Part shown: positions 5,864-64,000 of the stretch, piece by piece
Position numbering within the stretch: the first letter of the stretch is position 1
Layout: each line of letters begins with the position of its first letter
Source: Drechmeria coniospora
Taxonomy: Eukaryota; Ascomycota; Sordariomycetes; Hypocreales; Ophiocordycipitaceae
Reading direction: 5' to 3'
Length of the DNA: 64,000 bases
NCBI RefSeq assembly: GCF_001625195.1
Contig: NC_054389.1
Span: forward strand, 12,024,520 to 12,088,519
The notes under the pieces: model-generated
What the model was told of the DNA's origin: nothing
The model's database searches: none
What the model saw: only the letters and a program-made list of their open reading frames with translations
Position numbers and translations under genes: made by a program

Positions 5864-6180
5864 TAACAGCAACAGGCCATGTCGGCGAAGCGAGCGTAAC
5901 ATGACTGCTTTGTCGCCATTTGCATTTCGGTTTGGGCAGACGGCAACTGGCCCCGGTCGGCGAAGCGAGCGTAACATGACTGCTTTCTCGCCATTTGCAT
6001 TTCGGTTTGGGCAGACGGCAACAGGCCCCGGTCGGCGGAGCGAGCGTAACATGACTGCTTTGTCGCCATTTGCATTTCGGTTTGGGCAGACGGCAACTGG
6101 CCCCGGTCGGCGAAGCGAGCGTAACATGACTGCTTTCTCGCCATTTGCATTTTGGGTTGGGCACGGTATTTTGTCTGGAG
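5864..6180. repeat. 75-bp minisatellite, four copies
   Basis: Four head-to-tail units of exactly 75 bp start near 5881, 5956, 6031 and 6106, each opening GTCGGCGAAGCGAGCG (one copy has GGAG). Alternate copies share the variant TTTGTCG or TTTCTCG, so the array probably grew by duplication of a two-unit block. Because 75 is a multiple of three, long repetitive ORFs appear on both strands. The array begins about 35 bp after the stop codon of the upstream gene. It has no unique spacers, so it is not a CRISPR array. Confidence 0.92.
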
Positions 6181-6959: not shown

Positions 6960-9735
6960 CTACCGCGACGCGGCGTCCTGGTCCTCCATCTCGTGCTGCA
7001 ACCGCAAGCCGAGCGCCATGGCCCGCTCGTCCTGGCTCATGCGGTTCACCCGCGTCATGTAGACGCGAAACTGCATGCCGAGGTCCACGACGGCAACAAT
7101 GTCCTCCTTCTGCAGGCTGCGGCCCTTGCGGTTGGCAATGGCCGCCGCCGCGCGGATGCAGTTTCGGATCTGCCGCCCGTTCATGTGGAAGCCCTTGATC
7201 TCCCGGAGCTTCGACTCCAGCTGCTGCTGCACAAACTTGAGCAGCTCCACCTTCTTCGCCCGGTTCGCCTCGTCGTTTTCGTCGAGCCGTAGGTTGCGGA
7301 CAAAGATGAGCCACACCTGTTTCTGCCGCTCAAAGTCGAGGTCCGGCAGGCCGAGCGTGATGTGGATGCGCGAGTGGAACGCTTCGTCGATCTGGCCCGG
7401 CCGGTTCGTCGTCAGGAACAGCAGGCCGTCGTAGTACTCAATGTGCCGGAGGAAGACGGAGACGAGGGCGTTGCGCTTGAGGTCGTAGAGGTCGCGCTCC
7501 TGCAGGAACACGTCGGCTTCGTCGAGGAGGAGGATCGCCTTCCAGTGCACGGCGTGGATGAACGTCTCCTGGAGCCGCATCTCGAGCTTGTCGGGGTCCG
7601 TTCCGAGGTCGCCGCACGTCACCATGTAGAGGGGTCGCATCTTCTTCTCCGCCACGCACTCTGCCCGCCGTCAGCGACACCCTCGCCCGCGCTCTTCCCT
7701 GATCACGGGGCACCTTACCGGCCGTCAGCGTCTTGCCCGTTCCCGGCCCGCCGTGGAGCAGCACGATCAAGCCGCGTCCCTTGCCCTTGATGATGTCGTA
7801 AAATTGCGCGTTGCTGAGGTAGGCGTCCACCATCGATTCAATCACCTCCTTGTAGTTGTCCTCGATGACGAGCCTCGAGAAGGGGTCGACGGTGACGGCG
7901 ATGGGCTCGAGGTTGTCGAGCTCGACGTGCTTCCACGACTTGTGCTTCAGCGAAAAGGCCCAGACCCGGCAGGGACTGAACATCAGCGGGCTCTGCCGCG
8001 TCCCTTGCCCGCTCGGCTCGTCCGTCTGGTTGGAGCGTGACCATCGATCCTTCATGCAGATGTTGGACTCGCCCAGCGCGTCTTCCGGGTACGACGACGT
8101 GAGCCGCGCATACTTCCTCACGCACGCGGAGCAGCTGCAGTACTCCTCGTCGTCCGAGTCGCTGTAGTCATCCGTGCTCTCCGCCGGGTACCTGCTGGCG
8201 GTGACGTAGTCTATGATGACCCTGACGTAGTCCTGCCGCGAATCGCACCGACGTTACCAAGTGTCTCCGCGTGTGCGTCGGTGCATGGGGGGGGGGGGGG
8301 GGGGCGCCGCGCGGGGCGGGACTCACCGATGGTCGCGTCGTAGGCCACGCCGCGCCGACGTACTGTCGATACGCCGGCTCTCCGTGAAAGCCCCAAAAGG
8401 TGCGGCCCCTGGCTTCGAGAAAGTCGTCCATCTCGCGGCGCCCTTCCACGTGCGATTCCGGAATCAGGCCAAAGTCCGAGACGAAGCGCTCGCCCGAAAA
8501 GGGAGTCATGTACTGCACTGCCTCGACGGGCTCGAGCCTAGAGGCGCTGTCGTCGAGACAGAGGTAGTAACTTCGCATGTGCAGCAGGCCCGGGATGGGG
8601 AGGTGGTTGACCCAAACGTCGTCCACCTTGTACGCCCTCCACAGGCCAGCGTCCCGCACGTACACGGTCGTCCCGGGAGGGTAGAGCAGCCAAGAATCTT
8701 CAAACGATATGCGACGGCACTTTCCCTCCTCGATCTCGTCCAGCTTCGTCCACGTCGCGGCCATCTCCTCTTGGAGAAATTTGAGAAGCAGTCGAAGGTG
8801 AATGGCCTTTTCCCCCTCGGCTTGGTCCGCCGCCTGCATCAGCCTCCTTCGATTCTGGAAGAGCATGATGAACGGCTTCCGAAGGTTGACTTTGCGGGAA
8901 AAGAGTCTCTGGTAGGATTCGGACCTCGACACGGCGATGGTCTCCTTCAGCGCCTCGATGAGAACCGGCGAGTGAATCTTTAGCACCGTTCGCAAGGGGG
9001 ACCCGGTCTTGCTGAAGACGCGCCTGTACGTGATGGGGGCGTGCCGCGGCCCATCCGAGGCAAACTGCTTGAGGAACGAGTCGCTACCCTCATCTTCGAG
9101 GTAGAGATTGTCACCGTGATGACCGTTGCGACAGATCTTGACTTCTCGATAGACCGCGGCTTCCTCTGACGAGGCGTGAGCGATGACGTCCGGAAGCGTC
9201 TTTTCTTTTTCGGCGTACGCTTGGACTTACTCTCGTCGTCACCGCTCGAAGAGCTGGTGTCGCTGTCGGAGGTGGTGGCACCGCGGCTTGACCTACGTCT
9301 CACTTGCGGCATGATCGGCCGGACGGCATGCTCTCTGTTGATTACGCGCTGTTGACGCGTAACCATGCCCTCCAGGTGGTCAACGTAGTTGACTAGAGCT
9401 GCAAGCTTAGCAACACTCGGGCCTTGGATTCCTTCGAGCAGCGACTCCCGCCAGCCTGGAGGTAGTAGTGTTGGTCGTTCCTGTGGGCGACCCTTGCCGC
9501 CTATTTGGGGCGAGTTATGCGAGGCAAACGGAAGTTCACCCATGAAGCTTGGGTTTGAGACTGCATCGAGGGTCCCAGTTTTGCATGTGGCAGTCTTCGG
9601 CTGATCTTCTGGGCGCGTTTCGACGTCGTCGTCCGTGAGTGGAAGCCGTTGATCCTCCGTACCGCCGTCCGAATCTCCGGGTTCAGTCACCATCTCCGGC
9701 TCGCAGTGTGAATCGATCTCTGATTGCGGTGCCAT
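6960..9735 (-). CDS. AAA+ family ATPase (DUF7025-type, fungal)
   Basis: Four exons: 9735-9231, 9165-8327, 8232-7719, 7660-6960, giving 852 aa. All introns are GT...AG (65, 94 and 58 nt). The N-terminal third is Ser/Asp/Lys-rich and probably disordered. The middle carries the region typical of the fungal DUF7025 family (WLLYPPGTTVYVRD, then a stretch around YYLCLDDSASRLEPVEAVQY). A single AAA domain follows, with Walker A GGPGTGKT at about 609-616, Walker B LLLDEADVF with DEAD at about 666-669, and a sensor-1-like LTTNRP at about 702-707. The C-terminus is a helical lid (HMNGRQIRNCIRAAAAIA). The substrate is unknown; it is expected to be a cytosolic or organelle-surface remodelling ATPase. Intron 2 contains a long C-run in the transcript sense (a run of G on + at about 8287-8304), an error-prone spot in any assembly. 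Confidence 0.88.
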
Positions 9736-10366
9736 TATTCCTCAATCGACATTGTCTAGTGGCGTTCGGCACTTGCTGGGTAAATGGCAGATCCGTGACA
9801 GCAGCGGCCGGAGATTCGAGCTCTCGACACCAGATCCTGGTTTCGGATGCTAGCCCATCCTGGCACGACGAGGGACTGAGCCGTGCTTGCTATTGACGAA
9901 TGCCTCCAAAAATCTTGCTTCATGCTCGAATTGCCGATGTAATGTTTATTTATGTCGAGCGGCATTGAGCGTTACGCAAGCTCGCCGGCTCATCAGCAAA
10001 CGAGCGCTCGGAAGGATACCAGGGCGGCAGTTGCGGCTGGAGAGAGCTGAATAGAGGGCGCCGCGAGAGCTGCTAGTGTACGAAGCTGAGCAGGGCCCTG
10101 AAAGTGGTCAGATTTTAGTTCCATGCATACTTGTGCGAAGCAAGCATGGTCGCGAGGGGGCCCTGGCGAGGATCTGCTGCAACGGGTGTTGCCGAAGTGA
10201 AATCGAGGTATCTGTACATGACGGTTACATGCTGTCGGATGCGCGTGCTTATCGTCGGCGCTGGCATGCCAACAAAGCGATAGAAACTGCTTCCTAAACA
10301 CCATCCTCGGAGACATCTTCCTCCGATCGTCTTTGGCGTCCGAGACGGTCAGTGGGAGTAGAAACA
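9736..10366. other. Intergenic region, no feature seen
   Basis: This is the upstream flank of the AAA ATPase gene and the downstream flank of the NACHT gene. I see no ORF with gene-like composition, no RNA gene and no clear repeat. Confidence 0.6.
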
Positions 10367-12053
10367 TCAAACGCCTTCGTCGTCAGAGTCCAAGAGCAGG
10401 CCTGCAAAGTAATCCCTGTTTTCTTGGGCGTCGGTGGATGGCCTCGCTTGCGTCGTATCTGCTTGCATCGAGCTCAGGTCGCTGTACGTGAGCGAGCACG
10501 CCTCATCCATCTCGTCGCCCTGCACAAACAGGGTCGTGTCCCCTCGGCCGATGCGGCATTCCAGGTGCCCACCGGCCATGCTGGCAGCGGATCGACAGGG
10601 GCCGGCTGCCCGTTCGATGCCGAGGCAGCCATCGTCATCGTGGTCCGAGTCGAGGTCGTACAAGTCGTCCTCGACCGGAAAGCTGACGTCCGTGGCGTAC
10701 TCCTCCTCGAAGCCGGTAAAGGTCGTGCCGCGGACACGTCCATCGAGCCGCTCCCCCGCGGCTCGTTCTTCGTCGTTCCACGGCAATGCCTCGATGAGCG
10801 CGCGGAACTTCCTGCGTGATCTTGTTGGCGGCCGCTTCCGGTGAGGAGGTTTCGGGATTCGGAGGCAGACGTGCCGATGCGGTGCCCGAGCGGCGGCGGT
10901 GAAGTGACGCGATGCTTGCGGCATCCTCGATGTGACGACTATTTTGATCAAGACGACATCCGTACGGCTGAGCCTCAGCAATCCGTCGACGAGCTGGCGG
11001 AAAGGCGCGTTACCGTCACCGGGCCGGTTCGACGCCGCGAAAAGAGCGTCAATGTTGTCGATGACAACCACGAGTGTGCTGATCCTCGAAACAAAGACGC
11101 ACGTGGTGAACAGATCCCACAGGCCGTCGAAGCAACCGGATGCCTCTTGGAACCGGACGCTGTTGAGGCGGCACCTCTGGCATGCATCCTGCGTGAAGTT
11201 GTGGGCGTGGCTGTCGATTAGTTGACGGATCAAATCCTGGATGGCAACATCGGGCTGCCCCGGGCGGCCGTCAGCAGTTTCGCTGCAGAAATGGTGGACG
11301 ATGGCCATTTCATCCGTGGCAAGGTGAGAGTTGGCAAAGGCAGCCGTGCCGATGATTTCGAGCGACAAGTCCGTCGTCCAATCGGACGGCCCCGTGCCCA
11401 AGCATCCATCTATCCATAGAAGCTGGGATGATGCGTGCTTCGCCCACGAAAGAAGCTTATCTTGATCTTGGAGGCTCAGCGAGTCGACAACCTTGCCCAC
11501 CTGTCCGTCGGGGTAACGGCTCACGCTCCGCAGCATGTCGCTGCCGAACGGACGGAGACGAGGAAACGACAGGTCCCAGAAGCTGGGCTTCGAGCGGCAG
11601 AGCAGAGCGTCGTGGACCGTCGAGTCAGTGGGCAACGCGCTCTCATGCGCAGGAGAGGGCGCTGGCGTGGAAGTGACGGACATTTCTCTGAGAAATTCTG
11701 TATTCTCGGTCAGGATGCCACGTATCAGGCGATGACTGTAGGTGGAGCATCAAACCGGCAAGTCTCTGGTCTACATGGTCGGACTCTGGTGGGTTTGCAT
11801 GCGCACCGAGCTTGCGAAAGATGGCCTCGAGGTACCTCAACCCGTCGAGCTCGCCACCGGCATCCTCGTCTACATCGCCACCGCCGAGGCCGAGCTTCAC
11901 AATGAGCCGGCCGATGTTGACGAGGCTCGCATTTCCGGATGCCGAGTTGTGGCTCAACTCTATGACATCGCTATTTATGTTTGCCTTTGTCGGAGGGTGC
12001 ACGCTCATCGTTGACTGGCCGTCGACAACTTGACGGCCGGGTAGGAGCGTCAC
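10367..12053 (-). CDS. Short NACHT/STAND protein with N-terminal Asn/Gly motif
   Basis: Two exons, 12053-11756 and 11697-10367, joined by a 58-nt GT...CAG intron with CTGAC before the acceptor: 542 aa. A start at 12008 (Met16) is equally possible. Residues 36-48 read NSASGNASLVNIG and match two motifs in the divergent neighbour. A NACHT-like domain follows: a P-loop-position stretch LLWIDGCLGTGPS at about 192-204, Walker B STLVVVIDNIDAL, then a sensor-like VVTSR. The P-loop has Pro where the ATP-binding Lys should be (about residue 203), so nucleotide binding may be lost. There are no WD, ankyrin or TPR repeats; the C-terminus is acidic low complexity. Between about 10790 and 10910 another frame also reads plausibly, so a pair of small frameshifts or partial decay cannot be excluded. 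Family knowledge: fungal STAND proteins with such N-terminal motifs act as sensors for a HeLo-type effector. Confidence 0.6.
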
Positions 12054-12689
12054 GGCGTCACGGGCTGCGGATGTATAATCGATGGGTCATGTCGGGAAGT
12101 TTGTAGAATCCAATGCCGGCGCGCCGGCATCTCCTGCTGCTTATGCTCGGCGCCTCTCGAGTGCTGCCGAGGGCTCGTCGGGCAGGACGACGGAGAGGCA
12201 TGTAGCGAAACGTACAGATACCTTGACGACACCCCTGAGAGGCTAGGCTTGGGAGCTGACGTTGGCACGCCGTCATTGGGCGGCCATATGCCGACCCGTC
12301 ACCGTCGTTGGATGGCTTGCAGAACAGGTCCAACAGGGGGAAAGTAATGAAGGACCGACTCGCAGGGATGGCGGCGTATGCGGTATTTTCACACGCCGCG
12401 ACTCGTCGTCACGAGGCTCAAGCACACTCGAATGCAGAGCGGCTGAATCCATCGACGACGTGATGACCAGTAGTGGCGGCACCGTCCACGGACAATGCCT
12501 CGCAGCCAGCTCGACGGCGGCGGCGACGCGTCATCGCCCATGGTCCATGGTGGCTGTCATGAATTCCTGCTCCGTGGCGTTCTGTTACCAGAGTATAACA
12601 ATGCCGCTGCGGACGTCGTCTGCCGTCGTCCCCCTCCGTCGCAAGCCATCCCATAGCTGCCTGGCATCGACAGGTCGAACAAGTGCACA
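12054..12689. promoter_or_regulatory. Shared divergent promoter region of the NACHT/HeLo-like pair
   Basis: A 636-bp region lies between the two divergent start codons and holds no gene of its own. I see no convincing TATA box on either side. Its role as a bidirectional promoter is inferred from gene orientation only. Confidence 0.4.
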
Positions 12690-13534
12690 ATGGTGATTTT
12701 CCGTCGTCTCCTTGCGCAACTCCAAAGGAGCAGAGCAGCCAATGCTGACAAGGAGGACGGTAGTCGGGACTGGAAATCTTTGGCGCCGTCATCGCCGGGC
12801 TGGACGCGACGATCCTGATCGTATCCAAGGTGCACGATGCCATACGGGACGCCAAGGAGCTCCCCGAGCGGCTCCGGGGATACAGAAAGGAGCTCGAGAT
12901 GGCCAAGACGATCGTCAGGAGCTCATGTGAAGAGCCGACGATACGAACGAAGAAGGAGGTGGTGGAGGCGGTGCAGGAGATTGGCGTCGTCGCCTTTGCG
13001 CTCGACAAGTGCCTGAGGCAGCTCGACCAGGGACGGGGCCGGGTGAAGCAGATGGCCCATCAGCTGATCAAAGGCGGCAAGGAGGTGGGTGAGATTGAGA
13101 AGTCGATGGGATACCTCGGCCGTCGAAAGGACGACCTGGTCGTGCTCATCGGCCTCCTCAACACGTCGCTCTCGCAAAAGGTCAAGGAGCAGCTGGATCG
13201 ACTGGAAAGCAGGTACGCGTCCGGCTTGGCATCCGCGGCGCTCGCGAAGCCGCATCGGGAGACGTGCCGGACCGTGACGGACAATACGGCGACGGGGGCC
13301 TCGTTCATGTTCAACGGGCCCGTCGTGACGGGGCCGTCGGATCGCGACCCGTACGCCGACATCGACAAGGTTCTCATCCACGGGAACCGGACGGAGGGGA
13401 GCGCGACGATGCTCAACTACGCCGTCCACATTGATGTGCTCGAAAGGCTGGCGGACAACTTTTTGAAAAAGGTTCGCGGCGAGGTGGAAGACGAGGGTCG
13501 GAACGGTCAGAACGGTCAGAACGGTCGAGTCTGA
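12690..13534 (+). CDS. HeLo-like domain protein with two C-terminal repeat motifs (candidate amyloid-signalled effector)
   Basis: Best model: ATG at 12690-12692, intron 12693-12763 (GTGATT...GTAG, GCTGAC branch), exon 12764-13534, giving 257 aa beginning MSGLEIFGAVIAGLDATI. The single-codon first exon and weak donor make the start uncertain; the frame from 12764 onward is solid. The N-terminal 22 residues form a hydrophobic helix, followed by helical, charged sequence to about residue 150, as in HeLo-like/STAND N-terminal bundles that act on membranes. The C-terminal part has two similar motifs: NTATGASFMFNGPV (from about 175) and NRTEGSATMLNYAV (from about 209), 34 residues apart. The NACHT neighbour carries one related motif near its N-terminus. 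In the HET-S/NWD2 system such motifs seed amyloid to activate a pore-forming HeLo domain; that role here is inference. Confidence 0.62.
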
Positions 13535-53760: not shown

Positions 53761-56700
53761 TCAACATACGACGACTTTACACGCCATTCTGTCCCCGACG
53801 CTCCACCTCTCCCTCACCTTGTCCTTCCATGCCGCGAAGCTCTGCACCCTCCCGTCCTCGAGCAAAATCTCCCCCGTGTGCAGCAGCCGGTTCAGCGGCG
53901 GCACCGTGAACCACGCGTGGTCGCGTCGGCAGACGACCTTGTCGCTGCCCTCGCCCACCTTGTCGCTGCCCTCGCCCACCTTGTCGCTGCCCTCGCCCAC
54001 CTTGTCGTTGCCCTCGCCCACCTCGTCGTCCGCCGCCTTAATCACCTTGTCCAAGCACCGGCGGCAGAAGCACTCCACGCAGTAGCGGCACACGACAAAC
54101 TCCTCCCACGCCGCCATGTTCTTGAAGCACTGGAAGCAGCTGCGGTTGTAGCATTGAATGTCCGGCAGCTTCGGCTCGCCGAGGTGCTCCGCCGGCGATT
54201 CGCCAATCGTGCTAAACGACGCTTCCGGGTTGACCTTGCGCATCGATCGCGCCAGCGCCTGCGCGTTCGTCGTCTCCCCCGCCGCCGTGAAGATCCGGAA
54301 CAGGTTGTCGAGCGCAAACACGTCGTTTTCCGGTTCGCCGTCCGACAGCAGGTCGAGGCTGTCCCGTATGAGCGCCCGGAGCAGCGCCTCGGCCTCCGAC
54401 TCCCTGCCCAGGTGCCGGTAGAAGCAGGCGAGGTAGATGGACGCGGCGTTGACGTCCGATCCCAGCATGTACGGCGGCATGTTGAAGTTGTGGTGCTCGT
54501 CCTGCTTCTGCTGCACCACCTCGAGCCTGCCGATCCACGCCCTGGCTTCGGCCGACGTCCAGCCGGCGTCGAGAACCTTTTGCTTGTACAGGGCGGCGAG
54601 CCTCTGGAACGACATGGCGTACGCCTGCCGCGTAGGTATGCTCCCGCGCGGACGGTACTCGTCCAGCGAGATTTGCTCGAAGACGGCGATGGCCCGGTCA
54701 ATGTCCCGGGCGTACGCAAACGTCGTCCCCAGCGCCAACCGGAGGTGCAACACGACCAGCGTCTCGCGCAGGTGGACGTCGGCAATCTCGATGGCAAGCG
54801 ACAGGCGCTGCTGCAGAAAATCCGTCTTGCCCGTCTTGCTCGCGGCCTTGGGTATCCAGTCCATGACGAGCCGCGTCCGGTAGCTGGTCACCAGCAGGTT
54901 GACGAAGCGGCTCTGACCATACCTGCTTCGCGTCGAAGGCGCCGCCATCTGCTCCGCGAGATCCATGACCGCGCCGTACAGGTTTTCCAACGAGAGAACC
55001 TCAAAGTAGCCCCTTTCCGCTTCGAGAAACTCGTCCTCGTTGAGGCCCGCCCCTTCGGCGCTGCCGATGGCTTTGCCAAAGTGCTCGTGGGCAACCTCCA
55101 GCTTGCCGGTGCGGTACGCGCACTGGGCGATGAGAAGGAAATCCTTGTACAGCCGCCACCTGCTCTGCCCGAGCGCGCCTCCCCGCCAGCGGCCTTGGCG
55201 CATGTCGCGATCCTCCATCGCCGCGCACTCGAGGGCTTGATCCAAGGCGGCGCCGTACCGCTCATCCCTGTAGAGGCAAAAGGCGATGCGACCGGACGTC
55301 TCGACGCTGCTGCCGTCCATCTCGAGAGCCGTTTCGTAATGTTTGAGCGCCTCGGCGTGCATCTCCATGGTCAGGTACGTGCTCCCAACGCGCCTGTGCC
55401 AGTGAGCCGTCTCGGGCTGAGCCGCCCACGCCGTCGCCGTCGCCACCCGTTCCTCGATCGAGACGTCGGGCCAGTGGAGGTTTGCCTGAGACCACTCGTG
55501 CCCCGAGCTCACAAAGGCGACGTTGTGCACAATCTTGAAGCAGAAGCGCGTTGGGACGTAATGTGCGCAGTCGGCGGCCAGCCAGGCTTTGGCATAAAAT
55601 CGCCCCATGGGCTCGCAGACCGTCACGGGCTTCTCAAACGATCGCCTCGCAAAAGTCTTGGCTCCATCGTCGAGGCCGTCGATGACTGCCGGATCGTTGA
55701 GCCATCGTCGCAGACCGTGCATGTTGCCATCGCTAAAGATGTCCAAACCCTCGTCGTTTTTCTCGTACGTGATGCTCCAGTCGAACATGGTGCTCTCGTC
55801 CGTCAGCATCAGGTATAGCTGAGGCCCAAGCGCTCGCTTGTCGTCGTCGGACACACCCGCCGGGTCGATGGCGGCCACGTGCTCCTGCCAGTACCATGCG
55901 GCGTATTGCTTGATCGCCTGCTTTCCACGACCGAGGTCCAGGCCGGCGAACCAGGCCGGTTGGGTGAAAATCTTGAGACAGGATTTCAGTATGTGGATGC
56001 GAGCCTTGTTGATGTCGAAGCCGACGGTGGATTCGACCGCCGCCGCCTGGGCGGAGCGTCCGTGCCGGAAGAACTCGTGCACCGACGTGTGAAAAAAGGT
56101 GACGTGCGTCGTGGATTCGTTGGACCGGAACTCGACGTCGCTCGCCGAGTCGAGCAGTTCGGCGTGCAGCGGGCTCAGCGGCCTTGGCGGGCTCACGGTA
56201 GGGCTCGAATGCCTACTCGTGCTCACGCGAACGGCAGGGCTGAGATGCTGTCTGGGAACCGGCACGTCGCCGACGCTCAGGCTTCGTCCGTGGGCCGTCC
56301 TCGCCGGACCGACGTCCCGCTTCAGGTTTCGCTGCGCCCTGTCAAAGTCCTTGACGAGGTCGTCCGTGGTCAAGCCGTCCTGGCGTTCGAGCTCGAAGAA
56401 GCAGGCGTACTGGCGTCGCATCGACTCCTCCAAAAACAGGGGCGAGTCTCCAAACTCCATGACGAGGACGGCCTCGAGCTGCTCGAGGGTCAGGGCCTGC
56501 CGGCGCAGGTGACCCATCGCAGCATCTCGTTGAGATCCCTGACTTCCTCTCTCGATATGCTCTTGGCGAGACTGTCGAGCGTCCTCTGCAGCACGCCGTC
56601 AATCTCCTTCGGGTAGGCCTCGAGGCTTTCGAGGATGGAACTCTGATGACGCTTGCGGTTCACGTCGTCCATCATGAACTTGGCCACGATGAACAGGCCG

Positions 56701-58350
56701 TCGGCCTTTCGTTCAAGCGCCTCCATGACCCTCCTCTTGAAGTCGACGTTGGTGCGGCCGAGCACCCTGGAGTGGAGAACGCTGTCGTGGATGAAGGCGC
56801 TGACATCCATGGCGATGCGGTCCGACGTGACCTGGACCGTGGTCAGGGTACCGCCGGGAACGGGCGGGTCGAGCGATGCCGTGAGCTTGTCGGACATGTA
56901 CGACCGGCCGACGAGGGCAAACTGAAAGCGCGGTCGGGACCCCGGCCGTAGGTTGTCATCCGGTGCCAGCATGGACAGGAGCTGCTTGATCTCGTCTTCG
57001 TCGGCCTCGTCGATGCCATCGAAGAATACGTATCTGGTCCGGTCGACGGGGCCATCGGGAGGGGGAGTGCAAAAGAGCTGGCGGAAGGCACTCGGGACGG
57101 TCCTGATTTCGTCCTCACCATGAAGCTTCTGCATGAGCTCACTGGCGTAAAAGGCATCGCCCTCGCTCAGCTGATAGGCCACGTCGCGCAGCGCTTGCAG
57201 CACCGACCTCGTCTCGGGGTTGTTTGCGCGGAAGAAAAAGTAGCCGACGCTGGTGCGCTGGTCAAAGGTTTCCTTTCCCCATCTGATGATGCGCGCCGTG
57301 AGGTAGGACTTTCCGGTTCCTGCAAGTGGCGTGCATGAGTCACGGGTAGTCTCGATTTCGATGCATTCTGTTACTGACCCGCATTGCCGGATATCCAGAG
57401 ATATGGCTTCTCTCCCCGGACCCATGCATTCAAACCCTCGTCTCGAAGGATCCATTCGCAGGTTCCCGGCACGATGGACTTGCGAAAGGCGTTGTAGAAG
57501 TCCTCGGGGAAGGGCGAGGGCGCCAATACCTTCCGGAGCTTGTCACCGCTGGCGGCACGCTCAGACTGCTCCGACCGGATATTTTGGACCGTCTGGTTGA
57601 CCTGGGTGACGGCGACCTCGATCCTGTCGGCCTTTGCATCTATTCTGGAGACGCCGCCGTAGGTGTCGGCCGCCACTTGGCGCTCCTCACCCGAGGTCAA
57701 CGACTTGAGGGACTCGAGGGCGGGTTGGACGGGATTCTCGAGGCCCATGAGGCGCTTGAAATATGCCTTGAAGCGGCCCTGACGAGCCTCGTTTGCCGAA
57801 AGGACGAGGACCTGGAAGAGGGCCGCGAGTATGGCGATGAGCTTGTCGCGCAGGGCGGGCGAGAGCCGGTGCTTGACGTAGACGTCGAGGCGTGATGTAA
57901 AGTCCTGAGGGCGCTTAGCCGTGCACGCCGAAGAGGGCAGGCAAGAAGCATCGCTTCGGGTTGCGTTCTTACCGCGAGCTGGACGAACAGCTCGACAATG
58001 GAGTCGTACGTGGCCGACACATTCTGCGCAGCCTTGGTCAGGTGCAAGACGGCGGCGTAGATGCCCTGCGTCGGTGCAAAGACGGCGGAAGCGACGCCGA
58101 CCAAGACATCGCCAGCAACCTCGACGGGGGCAAAGGCGGCACCCAGGGTGTCGAAGAGGGCGCGACGACGGGCGCGAAAGGCGGAGAAATGGTCATTTTG
58201 CACCCTCAGCTCCCGCTTGAGGTCGTCGATGGACCGCATGGGTGGGGACAGGAAGTCTTTCATCTTGTTTCCGGACTTGACGCGGTAGGCCTTGGCAGCA
58301 TCGGCGACGATGGCACCAAACTGGCGTTCCACGTCGAGCGGCACCGCCAT
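53761..58350 (-). CDS. NACHT-TPR STAND protein with C-terminal zinc-finger-like motif, frameshifted
   Basis: Exons 58350-57973, 57913-57379 and 57319-53761 (introns 59 and 59 nt), about 1,490 aa if one missing base is allowed for. The N-terminal 250 residues match the fungal STAND N-terminal type (MAVPLDVERQFGAIVADAAK, later DSIVELFVQLA). NACHT: Walker A SGNAGTGKS at about 301-309, Walker B YVFFDGIDEAD at about 401-411. TPR-like helices occupy about 950-1150 (HWHRRVGSTYLTMEMHAEAL). A Cys-rich finger (CYNRSCFQCF, CRYCVECFCRRC) precedes four 7-residue GEGSDKV repeats near the C-terminus. The frame breaks near 56490, where one base is missing in the codon after WVTCAGR; the same protein continues in the next frame. 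A 47-nt GTCAGG...GCAG intron would also restore frame but would delete conserved residues. Likely an NLR-like sensor of self/non-self or damage; the ligand is unknown. Confidence 0.82.
53939..54022 (-). repeat. In-frame 21-bp repeat inside the NACHT-TPR gene
   Basis: Four units of CTTGTCGCTGCCCTCGCCCAC (+ strand; last unit with G-to-T change) encode Gly-Glu-Gly-Ser-Asp-Lys-Val on the minus strand. The near-identity of the copies indicates recent expansion or homogenisation within the coding sequence. Confidence 0.93.
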
Positions 58351-60016
58351 GGTGATTTGGGCGCCCGGCGTACCGAAAGACGAGAGACGCAGGTCGTGGG
58401 CGTTGGGAGCCGAGCCTGGTGCGGTATATGTACACGTATGTCAACCGACGAGGCACCCGGCCCAGCGGCAACGCTCCTCGCGGCAACGACCCTTGGTGGT
58501 GCACAGCCTTTCGCGGGCAGAAGAGATTGGCTGGCGAGGTGCAGAGGGAGGGCGGCTTGTGACGTTGCTGCAGGTGGCATAGGGTGTGATTGGGCCATCG
58601 GGACGGTGACGGCACATGCGGCTCAGCATCTTGCCTACAAGGCTGACCATGGTCACGCCTTGCATCCGGGTTGCCTTGTGGGTGCCTAGGTACGGTAGCA
58701 TCGTGCAATAATCCATCGTCACGGCGCTGCCAGCCCCAAGGGTAGAGGTTGAACGGAGCTTCGACCAGGACGTTGCCCATCACCGATCAAAAGTCTTGGT
58801 CGAGGCGACATGGACGGTTGGCGGGTGTGTTGTGCTGCACGGATACGAATGGTGAGTCGTATGCGGGTGGACAATTTCGGTGATTTACTGTGCGACGATG
58901 ACGATTCAACGGAGAGGGCATGATGCGGGCAGACGAGCTTGGTAGAATTGGAGAGGGCAGGGTGAATCGGGTGAATCGACGAGGCTCGGTGAGAGAGAGA
59001 GGAGACGACGGTGAGAGGAGACGGCGGTGGTGGGCGGTTGCGGACACGCACTGCAGGCGCGACCGTCCCCATCGATGACTTCCTTCCCTTGAAGTGAAAA
59101 AAAAACTTGCACGGGTTGCTCCTGCCTCGTACATGTCCAGTACGTGGGAATTATCATGGTGCGTTGGTACCGACTTTGCATACCACTGTGCAGACTTTGA
59201 CGATGGCATCGGCGATGGCTTTCACTGTTCCTTCATTTGATCGACGACCGACACGATGGACATCCATTTCGGTTTACGTGGATGGACATTGCTCGCATGC
59301 TGGTGTGCTTGCCCAGGGAAGATGGCGACAATTGCCAGGGGCTGACGACAAGTGCCGCCCAGGACCGATGGCATGCAGAATGCATAGGTCCGAAAGCACC
59401 AAAAACATCGACCCCGTCCTCGTCAGCAGTCGTTATCCACGCGTCCGTGGATACAAACACCCTGGACATACTACGTCGAGGCGCATGGCAGGCAGGTTTC
59501 CGTCGGGCAGCGGGCACAAGTGCCGTCCGTCCGCACGTCTTTCACGCGGACACCAAGCTCGGCCATTCATCCAATACCAGCCGTTGATCCAAACCCAGCC
59601 GTTGATCCAAACCCAGCCGTTGATCCAAACCCAGCCGTTGATCCAAACCCAGCCGTTAATCCAATCCCTGCCCATTCATCCATTCTAGCAGCCAGATGAT
59701 GCGGTGCCTTTGCATTACGACGGAAAAGAGTCGAGATGGAAGCACAAAACGATTGTCGGCGCCGAATGCAATGACTTTTCCACGGAGCGGTAACCGAGTC
59801 GTACCCGAAATCCAAGCCACAGGGGGCCAGTTCGTCTGATGACACCGACGGCAGTCGCTGCAGGGGGGCGGATATTGCCAGGGATCGATTCCATTTCCAG
59901 CAGGTACTACAAAGGTGACGCAGCTGACATGCTCGCCACGGCACAGCCATCACCCCCCAGGCCGTTCGCACCAAGCTCACGCATCTCCAGGATGGGGGCA
60001 ACGATGGACGAGATGA
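58351..60016. other. Intergenic region with an 18-bp repeat
   Basis: About five copies of CCGTTGATCCAAACCCAG lie in tandem at about 59580-59668. The rest (5' flank of the NACHT-TPR gene and 3' flank of the tubby-like gene) shows no supported gene; overlapping open frames have no signature. Confidence 0.55.
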
Positions 60017-63250: not shown

Positions 63251-64000
63251 AAGAAAAAACAGGTTACGGTACATAACCTTTTGCGTAAATACTTTTGGAA
63301 AATTAAAAAATACTTCCTAGGAACTACAGCTCGAACTCCAACTTACATCTAAAAAATAAACTGTATACCTAGAAATTACAGTACTTAGGAAAATATAGGG
63401 TATCTATTGCGCTAGGAACTAACTGCTAATTACAGTATATCTACTGCGCTATAAACAACTTTAAGTTATAGTGCGTCTACTGCGCTATAAATAACTTTAA
63501 GTTACAGTACGTCTACTATATTGCGAATTAGTTATCGCTTGGAATTAGTTCCAAACTACTTCCTGTGCGTTTTAGTGGAATTAATTCCGAACTACTTTAC
63601 TATACCTTATTGGAATTAATTCCGAACTACTTCGCCATACCTTATTAGAATCGGTTCCAAACTACTTTGCCGTACCTTATTGGAATTGGTTCCAAACTAC
63701 TTCGCTGTACCTTATTGGAATTAATTCCAACCACTTCGTATACGTCTTGGTGGAATTAATTCTGACTACTTTACCGTACCTTATTGGAATCGGTTCCGAA
63801 CTACTTTACCGTACCTTATTAGAATTAATTTCGAACTACTTTACCTTATCTTATTGGAATCGGTTCCAAACTACTTTGCTATACCTTATTGGAATTAATT
63901 CCAACTTACTTTGCAGTATCTTATTAAAGTAAGAGATAGATCTAGTTCTATACCGTATTATTATAGATTCCAATAGTTATATACTCTTGTATTGCAAATA
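63251..64000. repeat. AT-rich block with 36-bp and 35-bp tandem satellites
   Basis: Base composition changes abruptly to AT-rich at about 63250. From about 63435 to 63530 roughly three copies of a ~36-bp unit contain CTACTGCGCTATAAATAAC. From about 63541 to 63925 about eleven copies of a 35-bp unit each carry the palindrome GGAATTAATTCC (or GGAATCGGTTCC) followed by AACTACTTT and a TACCTTATT end. Nothing codes here. The block runs off the end of the window. Confidence 0.9.

Follow-up and report, generated by a model that had tools for sequence, protein, structure and literature searches.

A 64-kb stretch of DNA from the nematode-killing fungus Drechmeria coniospora, referred to here as the window, contains two divergent neighboring genes, RJ55_04269 on the minus strand and RJ55_04270 on the plus strand. 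The former encodes a receptor-like protein with a diverged NACHT-type domain, the latter an effector-like protein, and both products contain a short motif bounded by two asparagine residues. The best protein-database matches were the D. coniospora proteins themselves (rounded identity of 100% for RJ55_04270 and 99% for RJ55_04269). The receptor-like protein was identical to the public sequence at 501 of 510 positions, none of the nine differences affecting the motif, and the product of effector exon 2 was identical at 255 of 256, with no difference in the motif core. Because of these differences, all of which spare the motif core, the window probably represents a strain of D. coniospora other than the public one. 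Three of the nine substitutions in the receptor-like protein are located shortly past the motif (residues 42, 48, and 50). The genome containing the window comprises 32.8 Mb in 28 contigs, and no paralogue was listed in it for the effector at E values up to 0.001 or for the receptor-like protein at E values up to 10. The open frame of effector exon 2 has no ATG ahead of SGLEIFGA. For this gene, we prefer a start codon at 12690 to the public one at 12347 because splicing of a putative 71-nt intron generates a product beginning with MSGLEIFGA, exactly as in a relative from Monosporascus. This choice is a judgement involving a predicted splice, and the preferred model encodes 257 amino acids.

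The initial annotation had proposed that the two proteins share the motif N-x3-G-x-[AS]-x-[ML]-[FLV]-N. The three strings were all present: NSASGNASLVN in the minus-strand protein (copy r0; residues 21–31, window positions 11948–11916), and NTATGASFMFN (r1; 13283–13315) and NRTEGSATMLN (r2; 13385–13417) in the plus-strand protein. The effector copies were 34 codons apart, as claimed, and the proposed layout, with one motif at the N-terminus of the receptor, two at the C-terminus of the effector, and divergent transcription of the neighbors, was borne out at the locus (Table 1). A DNA form of the pattern, which does not span every codon allowed at the protein level and fails to detect the receptor copy, matched twice in the 64 kb, both times in the effector gene, versus a mean of 0.01 matches in 100 shuffles.

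Table 1. Features of the divergent gene pair, in window coordinates.
Feature	Position	Strand	Remark
Receptor-like gene RJ55_04269, exon 1 (start codon 12008–12006)	11807–12008	-	Spliced model reproduces the public 510-residue protein with 9 differences
Motif r0, HNSASGNASLVNIG, receptor-like residues 20–33	11910–11951	-	Top site of its protein for three profiles, weak alone
Receptor-like gene, intron of 109 nt, GTGCGC...ACAG (GT..AG)	11698–11806	-	Prediction only
Receptor-like gene, exon 2, encoding the diverged NPHP3_N domain (NACHT type), a basic linker, and an acidic tail, with stop	10367–11697	-	PF24883, 39.4 bits (cut-off 24.8)
Degenerate Walker A GCLGTGPS, Pro instead of the catalytic Lys, residues 165–172	11384–11407	-	Family alignment
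Acidic tail ending LLLDSDDEGV, with hydrophobic-acidic patch resembling a SUMO-interacting motif	10370–10777	-	Kind recurs in relatives; lead only
Region between start codons, 681 bp (338 bp with the public effector start)	12009–12689
Preferred effector start codon, spliced product begins MSGLEIFGA	12690–12692	+	Public model starts at 12347
Proposed effector intron, 71 nt, GTGATT...CTGAC...TAG	12693–12763	+	Prediction only
Effector gene RJ55_04270, exon 2, encoding a probably helical N-terminal domain, the tail with the motifs, and a C-terminal segment, with stop	12764–13534	+
Hydrophobic N-terminal stretch GLEIFGAVIAGLDATILIV	12767–12823	+	Mean Kyte-Doolittle 1.95
Motif r1, DNTATGASFMFNGP, effector	13280–13321	+	Rank 1 of 89,318 windows, Fusarium-only profile
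Motif r2, GNRTEGSATMLNYA, effector	13382–13423	+	Rank 2 of 89,318 windows, Fusarium-only profile (13.2 bits versus 12.2 for rank 3)

Proteins related to either partner carry the motif in other genera. FPSE5266_20258 and H9Q73_003074, two Fusarium proteins with 30% and 29% identity to the receptor-like protein, contain SNIAEGSSIMINGD and SNSAEGSSIMINGD, starting at residues 22 and 24, respectively. In DL764_003877, a Monosporascus protein related to the effector (40% identity), r1 and r2 correspond to NNKAGGRGVMLNGP and GNEVKDSGFMVNYA. The starts of the two effector copies are spaced by 34 residues in Drechmeria and 37 in Monosporascus. In the alignment of seven copies, including two near-identical ones from Fusarium, both asparagines and a hydrophobic residue at position -3 from the first asparagine were present in 7/7, and a glycine at +4 and a methionine at +8 in 6/7 each. 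The motif can be roughly described as hydrophobic-x-x-N-x-[AT]-x-G-x-[AS]-x-[ML]-hydrophobic-N-[GIY], with deviations at one and three of these positions in the two Monosporascus copies. The pattern of the initial annotation fits the three Drechmeria copies and is too narrow beyond this species: it accommodates the two Fusarium copies only with isoleucine allowed before the last asparagine, and it never fits the two Monosporascus copies (0 regular-expression matches), though profiles find them. Partner genes in Fusarium or Monosporascus were reached by none of three protein-database searches; the set of relatives may be incomplete since scoring in two of these searches was restricted to the 7996 and 7994 candidates with the most words in common with the query. 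A peptide-pattern search of IMG/VR matched 26 and 7 stretches, none of which encoded a relative.

Because the boundaries of the 14-residue motif were set by eye and the pair had been picked beforehand by the reader of the sequence, the tests to weigh are those performed across genera. In these tests, a profile derived from one protein family was applied to the other family in other genera, and no test sequence was included in the training. The proteins were labeled P0001 (Drechmeria effector), P0002 (Monosporascus effector), P0003 (Drechmeria receptor-like protein), P0004 (a metagenomic receptor-like relative), and P0005 and P0006 (Fusarium receptor-like proteins). The profile of the Fusarium r0 copies placed the two motif copies of the Drechmeria effector at ranks 1 and 2 (18.6 and 13.2 bits; 1.5 for the next site). 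The best score was reached by none of 500 shuffled proteins and none of 5000 column-shuffled profiles, and the second by 7/5000 such profiles. The same profile ranked the two copies of the Monosporascus effector first and second (16.3 and 6.5 bits; 3.2 for the next site), its best score being reached by 0/500 shuffled proteins and 1/5000 column-shuffled profiles. In the opposite direction, the profile of Drechmeria r1 and r2 identified the N-terminal site of both Fusarium proteins with 20.9 and 21.9 bits (0/500 and 0/5000 in each case), and the profile of Monosporascus r1 and r2 did so with 16.5 and 18.0 bits (4/5000 and 3/5000 column-shuffled profiles). Scanning of the entire window, i.e. of the 89,318 fourteen-residue windows present in stop-to-stop frames of at least 30 residues, gave the two top positions to the effector copies with the Fusarium profile (18.6 and 13.2 bits; 12.2 for the third window). 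With a combined Fusarium and Monosporascus profile, they came second and first (22.6 and 24.1 bits; 12.5 for the third). The Drechmeria receptor copy was sixth and ninth, respectively. These results indicate that the effector-side motif is more than chance. Of the copies named in the initial annotation, those of the effector are far above chance expectation in the cross-genus tests; the Drechmeria receptor copy is unconvincing alone. We gave credence to the latter because its N-terminal location matches that of the high-scoring Fusarium copies.

The receptor-like protein departs from a usual NOD-like receptor (NLR). Its NPHP3_N domain was detected by Pfam above the cut-off (Table 1), and the metagenomic relative P0004 had a sub-threshold NACHT match (E = 0.02). 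No Pfam match to a nucleotide-binding domain was obtained for the two Fusarium proteins at E values up to 10. The Walker A site reads GCLGTGPS, GCFDQRQS, and GPWSPAIS in the three family members covering it; the lysine is gone and GxxxxGK[ST] is absent in 3/3 (the gene model of P0006 skips this segment). The flanking sequences were retained, LLWIDG ahead of the site in 3/3 and WTTDL[SC]LE after it in 4/4 proteins. Owing to this conservation around the lost Walker A lysine, the receptor-like proteins look like a stable family rather than a random wreck. Two other loci of the genome encoding NPHP3_N show GKST; the frame of one of them (L007, G000:C2:7508041–7508520) contains one TGA and one TAA, which may reflect introns or a decayed NLR. 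No C-terminal repeat family was found in any of the four receptor-like proteins by Pfam at E values up to 10 (within the HMMER filters), and no solved structure matched the family at E values up to 1. The NACHT or NLR partner proposed initially is therefore NACHT-derived, as a diverged NPHP3_N protein, and is not a normal NLR, its P-loop being changed and repeats not being found. Its sequence makes it seem a pseudo-NTPase that has lost the usual nucleotide-binding site.

Downstream from the NPHP3_N domain, the proteins display a conserved basic stretch and then an acidic tail bearing patches of hydrophobic and acidic residues. A looser pattern of these patches was present in 4/4 proteins and a strict one in 2/4, Drechmeria not included; LLxDS[DE] occurs in all four proteins and [VI]DLLSDS in both Fusarium ones. 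The patches have what we take to be a resemblance to SUMO (small ubiquitin-like modifier)-interacting motifs (SIMs). Since the strict pattern was present in 2/4 proteins and absent from Drechmeria, we did not adopt the SUMO-interacting reading of the tail other than as a lead.

Residues 3–21 of the effector are hydrophobic (mean of 1.95, versus 1.61 for the best 19 residues of the Monosporascus protein). The HeLo-like identity that the initial annotation had assigned to the effector domain was left unconfirmed and is retained as a lead: the best Pfam match in the Drechmeria protein was SesA, below threshold (14.6 bits for a cut-off of 26.3), and the Monosporascus effector had no SesA match. 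HeLo was found at two loci of the genome. Comparison of the effector by hhalign with the HeLo locus L012 and with L015 (sub-threshold PigL_N) detected nothing, with a query profile of low depth (effective number of sequences, 1.45). Matches of the effector to solved structures (one at E = 0.74 and three at E = 0.42–1.1) were not taken as meaningful. The AlphaFold model, numbered from the serine of SGLEIFGA, displayed helices as far as approximately residue 158, a coil spanning r1 and almost the whole of r2, and a further helix between residues 219 and 249; it was too poor to be used because of a mean predicted local distance difference test (pLDDT) score of 38. Conservation of the effector tail between Drechmeria and Monosporascus extends beyond the motifs and includes the segment past r2.

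The closest known system is HET-S/NWD2 of Podospora anserina (motif HRAM1), one of the fungal cell-death switches triggered by amyloid templating. The copy number and positions of the motif follow the HET-S/NWD2 rule (PMC3321046, PMC4518210), and the two systems also have in common divergent adjacent genes, asparagine and glycine in the motif, and a hydrophobic effector N-terminus. They differ in the motif core, which is N-x9-N here and N-x16-N with a glycine before the second asparagine in HET-S/NWD2. In contrast to NWD2, the receptor-like protein has no detected WD or other repeats and no P-loop lysine; in contrast to HET-S, the effector has no Pfam HeLo match and its r2 copy enters a predicted helix. 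Similarly, the pairs with motifs HRAM2 to HRAM5 (Daskalov 2015, PMC4518210) share with the Drechmeria pair the layout, the spacing of the repeats, a charge-poor r0, and, by eye, the resemblance of r1 to r1 and of r2 to r2 across species. The spacing of 34–37 residues falls within the HRAM repeat layout of a 21-mer plus a loop of 6–18 residues. The r0 copies contain few charges and, by eye, much serine, as reported for NLR copies in PMC4518210.

These likenesses give some weight to the explanation, which we regard as possible but doubtful, that the motif is a diverged member of the HRAM family acting by the same mechanism rather than a separate motif. According to PMC4518210, glycine is perfectly conserved at position 19 of HRAMs, with N, Q, or H at position 3 and hydrophobic residues at positions 5, 8, 10, 16, and 18. 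A register combining N, Q, or H at position 3 with G19 does occur at r1 of both effectors, with asparagine at position 3, and in the Drechmeria r1 the five core positions are all occupied by A, C, T, or a hydrophobic residue. However, strictly hydrophobic residues account for only 2/5 of these positions in each r1 register, neither register has an arginine or lysine at position 15, and G19 is missing from r2 of both effectors. No such register was found in the Drechmeria r0; each Fusarium r0 had one, whose overlap with the motif is limited to its first part (1/5 and 0/5 core positions strictly hydrophobic). If the first asparagine is taken as position 3, the second is located 10 residues further instead of 17, and G19 is missing at r2 and at all three r0 copies. 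G19, a basic residue at position 15, and the core pattern of HRAM2 to HRAM5 are likewise not found in the register of the motif, in a comparison based on position rules. Finally, PF11558 had no match at E values up to 10 in either effector or in the four receptor-like proteins, although this model matched only 38 of the 155 published HRAM proteins (PMC4518210). A canonical HET-s in the same genome was considered and rejected, as the single PF11558 match (19.2 bits, cut-off 32.2) was antisense to a larger open frame.

The PP (HELLP/PNT1), sigma (SesA/SesB/Het-eN), and PUASM (PNP_UDP) systems also consist of receptor and effector pairs with a common short motif. PP and sigma effectors have a single copy (PMC4518210), whereas there are two here. 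None of the patterns as printed (G-hydrophobic-Q-hydrophobic-G for PP, FxGxGxQxxGxGxF for PUASM, and about 40 residues with a three-fold repetition for sigma; PMC9815663, PMC5485727) was seen by eye, without a profile, in the Drechmeria pair. The NLR34 motif is described in PMC9815663 for 29 NLRs, mainly from Ascomycota, with no effector or neighbor match. The present motif may be NLR34 or lie at the edge of an HRAM subfamily. The statement that the motif could not be assigned to a named class held with respect to the HRAM position rules and to PP, sigma, and PUASM as printed. Fungal NLRs with non-canonical P-loops (Dyrka 2014, PMC4986451) and the Pfam inactive STAND model resemble the receptor-like protein in that the Walker A of their NACHT-type domain is altered. 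They differ from it in that the change is here common to a family that has no detected repeats and that carries an N-terminal motif in 3/4 members. The inactive STAND model had no match listed for the family. PMC12258605 and PMC12261475 were further sources for comparison. No paper was found under five gene tags, and none of the papers listed in literature searches on Drechmeria and amyloid signaling contained the name Drechmeria.

On balance, we lean toward the pair being a two-component templated amyloid switch of the HET-S/NWD2 type, as far as sequence comparison can tell. The motif would form a beta-arch, and receptor-like proteins brought together would stack their N-terminal motifs into a cross-beta seed. 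The seed would template the paired effector motifs, which would free the N-terminal helix of the effector to attack the membrane of the fungus itself. Because the Walker A lysine is lost and no repeats were found, clustering would probably be achieved by means other than ATP-switched NLR assembly, for example by binding of the tail to a multivalent partner. More tentatively, and with odds that we place well below even, the pair may belong to an unnamed amyloid-signaling family whose compact beta-arch motif of the N-x9-N type connects a membrane effector carrying two copies with a pseudo-NLR in which nucleotide binding and sensor repeats are permanently lost. In such a family, clustering and firing would be set by the SIM-like acidic tail, with polymeric SUMO or some other multivalent ligand taking the place of NLR assembly driven by ATP. 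The confidence attached to the switch reading and to the alternatives overlaps, and the corresponding figures do not sum to one.

Several observations weigh against a HET-S/NWD2-type switch. Adjacency of the motif-bearing genes is known from a single species, Drechmeria, and one of the four receptor-like proteins, P0004, lacks the motif, although its predicted N-terminus is short and the metagenome contig encoding it measures only 1584 bp. By itself, the Drechmeria r0 is a weak match: its score was reached by 326, 421, and 474 of 5000 column-shuffled profiles and by 15, 22, and 28 of 500 shuffled proteins for the three profiles. Used as a profile, it performed poorly on r2 of its own neighbor (115/5000) and on the Fusarium sites (1133/5000 for P0005 and 254/5000 for P0006), and its top site in the Monosporascus effector was not the motif (447/5000). 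The second Monosporascus copy was also weak, as 537/5000 column-shuffled profiles reached its score. In both effectors, HeLo, HeLo-like, and SesA were all absent above the Pfam cut-offs. Many HRAM proteins have an aromatic, glycine-containing segment after the repeats (PMC4518210); unlike these, r2 of the effector runs into a predicted helix and the conserved segment VRGEVExEG. Finally, the receptor-like protein is devoid of the P-loop lysine and of detected repeats, which NLRs use to switch and to sense.

This last feature suits an explanation that we hold to be somewhat less probable still than a diverged HRAM, according to which the receptor-like protein would serve as a regulator or decoy, a pseudo-NTPase capping or dampening the effector via its single motif, with activation by another protein. 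A Walker A site devoid of lysine in the 3/3 proteins covering it and the absence of detected repeats in 4/4 fit a protein unable to switch by itself, and the Drechmeria r0 has drifted from r1 and r2. Against this, the single-copy NWD2 r0 peptide nucleates rather than caps (PMC5485727), and both Fusarium proteins strongly conserve the motif. It is unlikely that the effector copies are merely part of an ordinary folded C-terminal domain matched by a convergent Asn/Gly/Ser-rich sequence in the receptor-like protein: the conservation of the tail past r2 and the weakness of the Drechmeria r0 would fit, but the same ordered positions occur in unrelated protein types from three genera, and column-shuffled profiles of equal composition reached the best score in only 0–4 of 5000 in the six Fusarium-effector comparisons.

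According to the genome paper published in 2016 (PMC4859500), D. coniospora has no proteins with a NACHT domain (PF05729), versus 8–117 in 11 other fungi. In our Pfam search, for which counts of NLR-type domains are lower bounds, NPHP3_N was found at at least six places in at least five loci, including the present gene and a complete-looking NLR elsewhere in the window; one of these loci (L009) reads like a helicase by eye. PF05729 itself was over its cut-off in at least one match, at locus L016, where an AAA model scores better, and NB-ARC had no match at E values up to 0.001. We infer that D. coniospora is poor in NLRs rather than empty of them and that the pair is among the few left. A NACHT-derived gene is thus present, paired, and endowed with a cross-genus motif in a species reported without NACHT (PF05729) proteins. 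If the proposed switch is real, fungal amyloid signaling would not need a nucleotide-switched receptor. The pair would also provide a minimal, chemically tractable system for deliberately starting an amyloid seed in a cell, and would add a motif with another asparagine spacing to the small set used for training predictors.

A complete-looking NLR gene, in pieces, was also observed in the window about 40 kb from the pair (53764–58440, minus strand), with the domain order Goodbye (E = 7.5e-21), NPHP3_N (E = 7.9e-16), and TPR repeats. Its P-loop, GNAGTGKS, was recognized by eye across a putative intron and was missed by a contiguous P-loop scan. The gene adjoining the pair (6960–9741, minus strand) encodes a fungal AAA ATPase with DUF7025, AAA, and AAA_lid_13 domains. 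The window additionally contains a 75-bp minisatellite (5881–6163; 3.8 copies, 95% matches) within open frames on both strands, and degenerate tandem arrays at 63403–63925, consisting of a 36-bp unit (63403–63517) followed by about 10 copies of a 35-bp unit, with higher periods of 70 and 174 bp.

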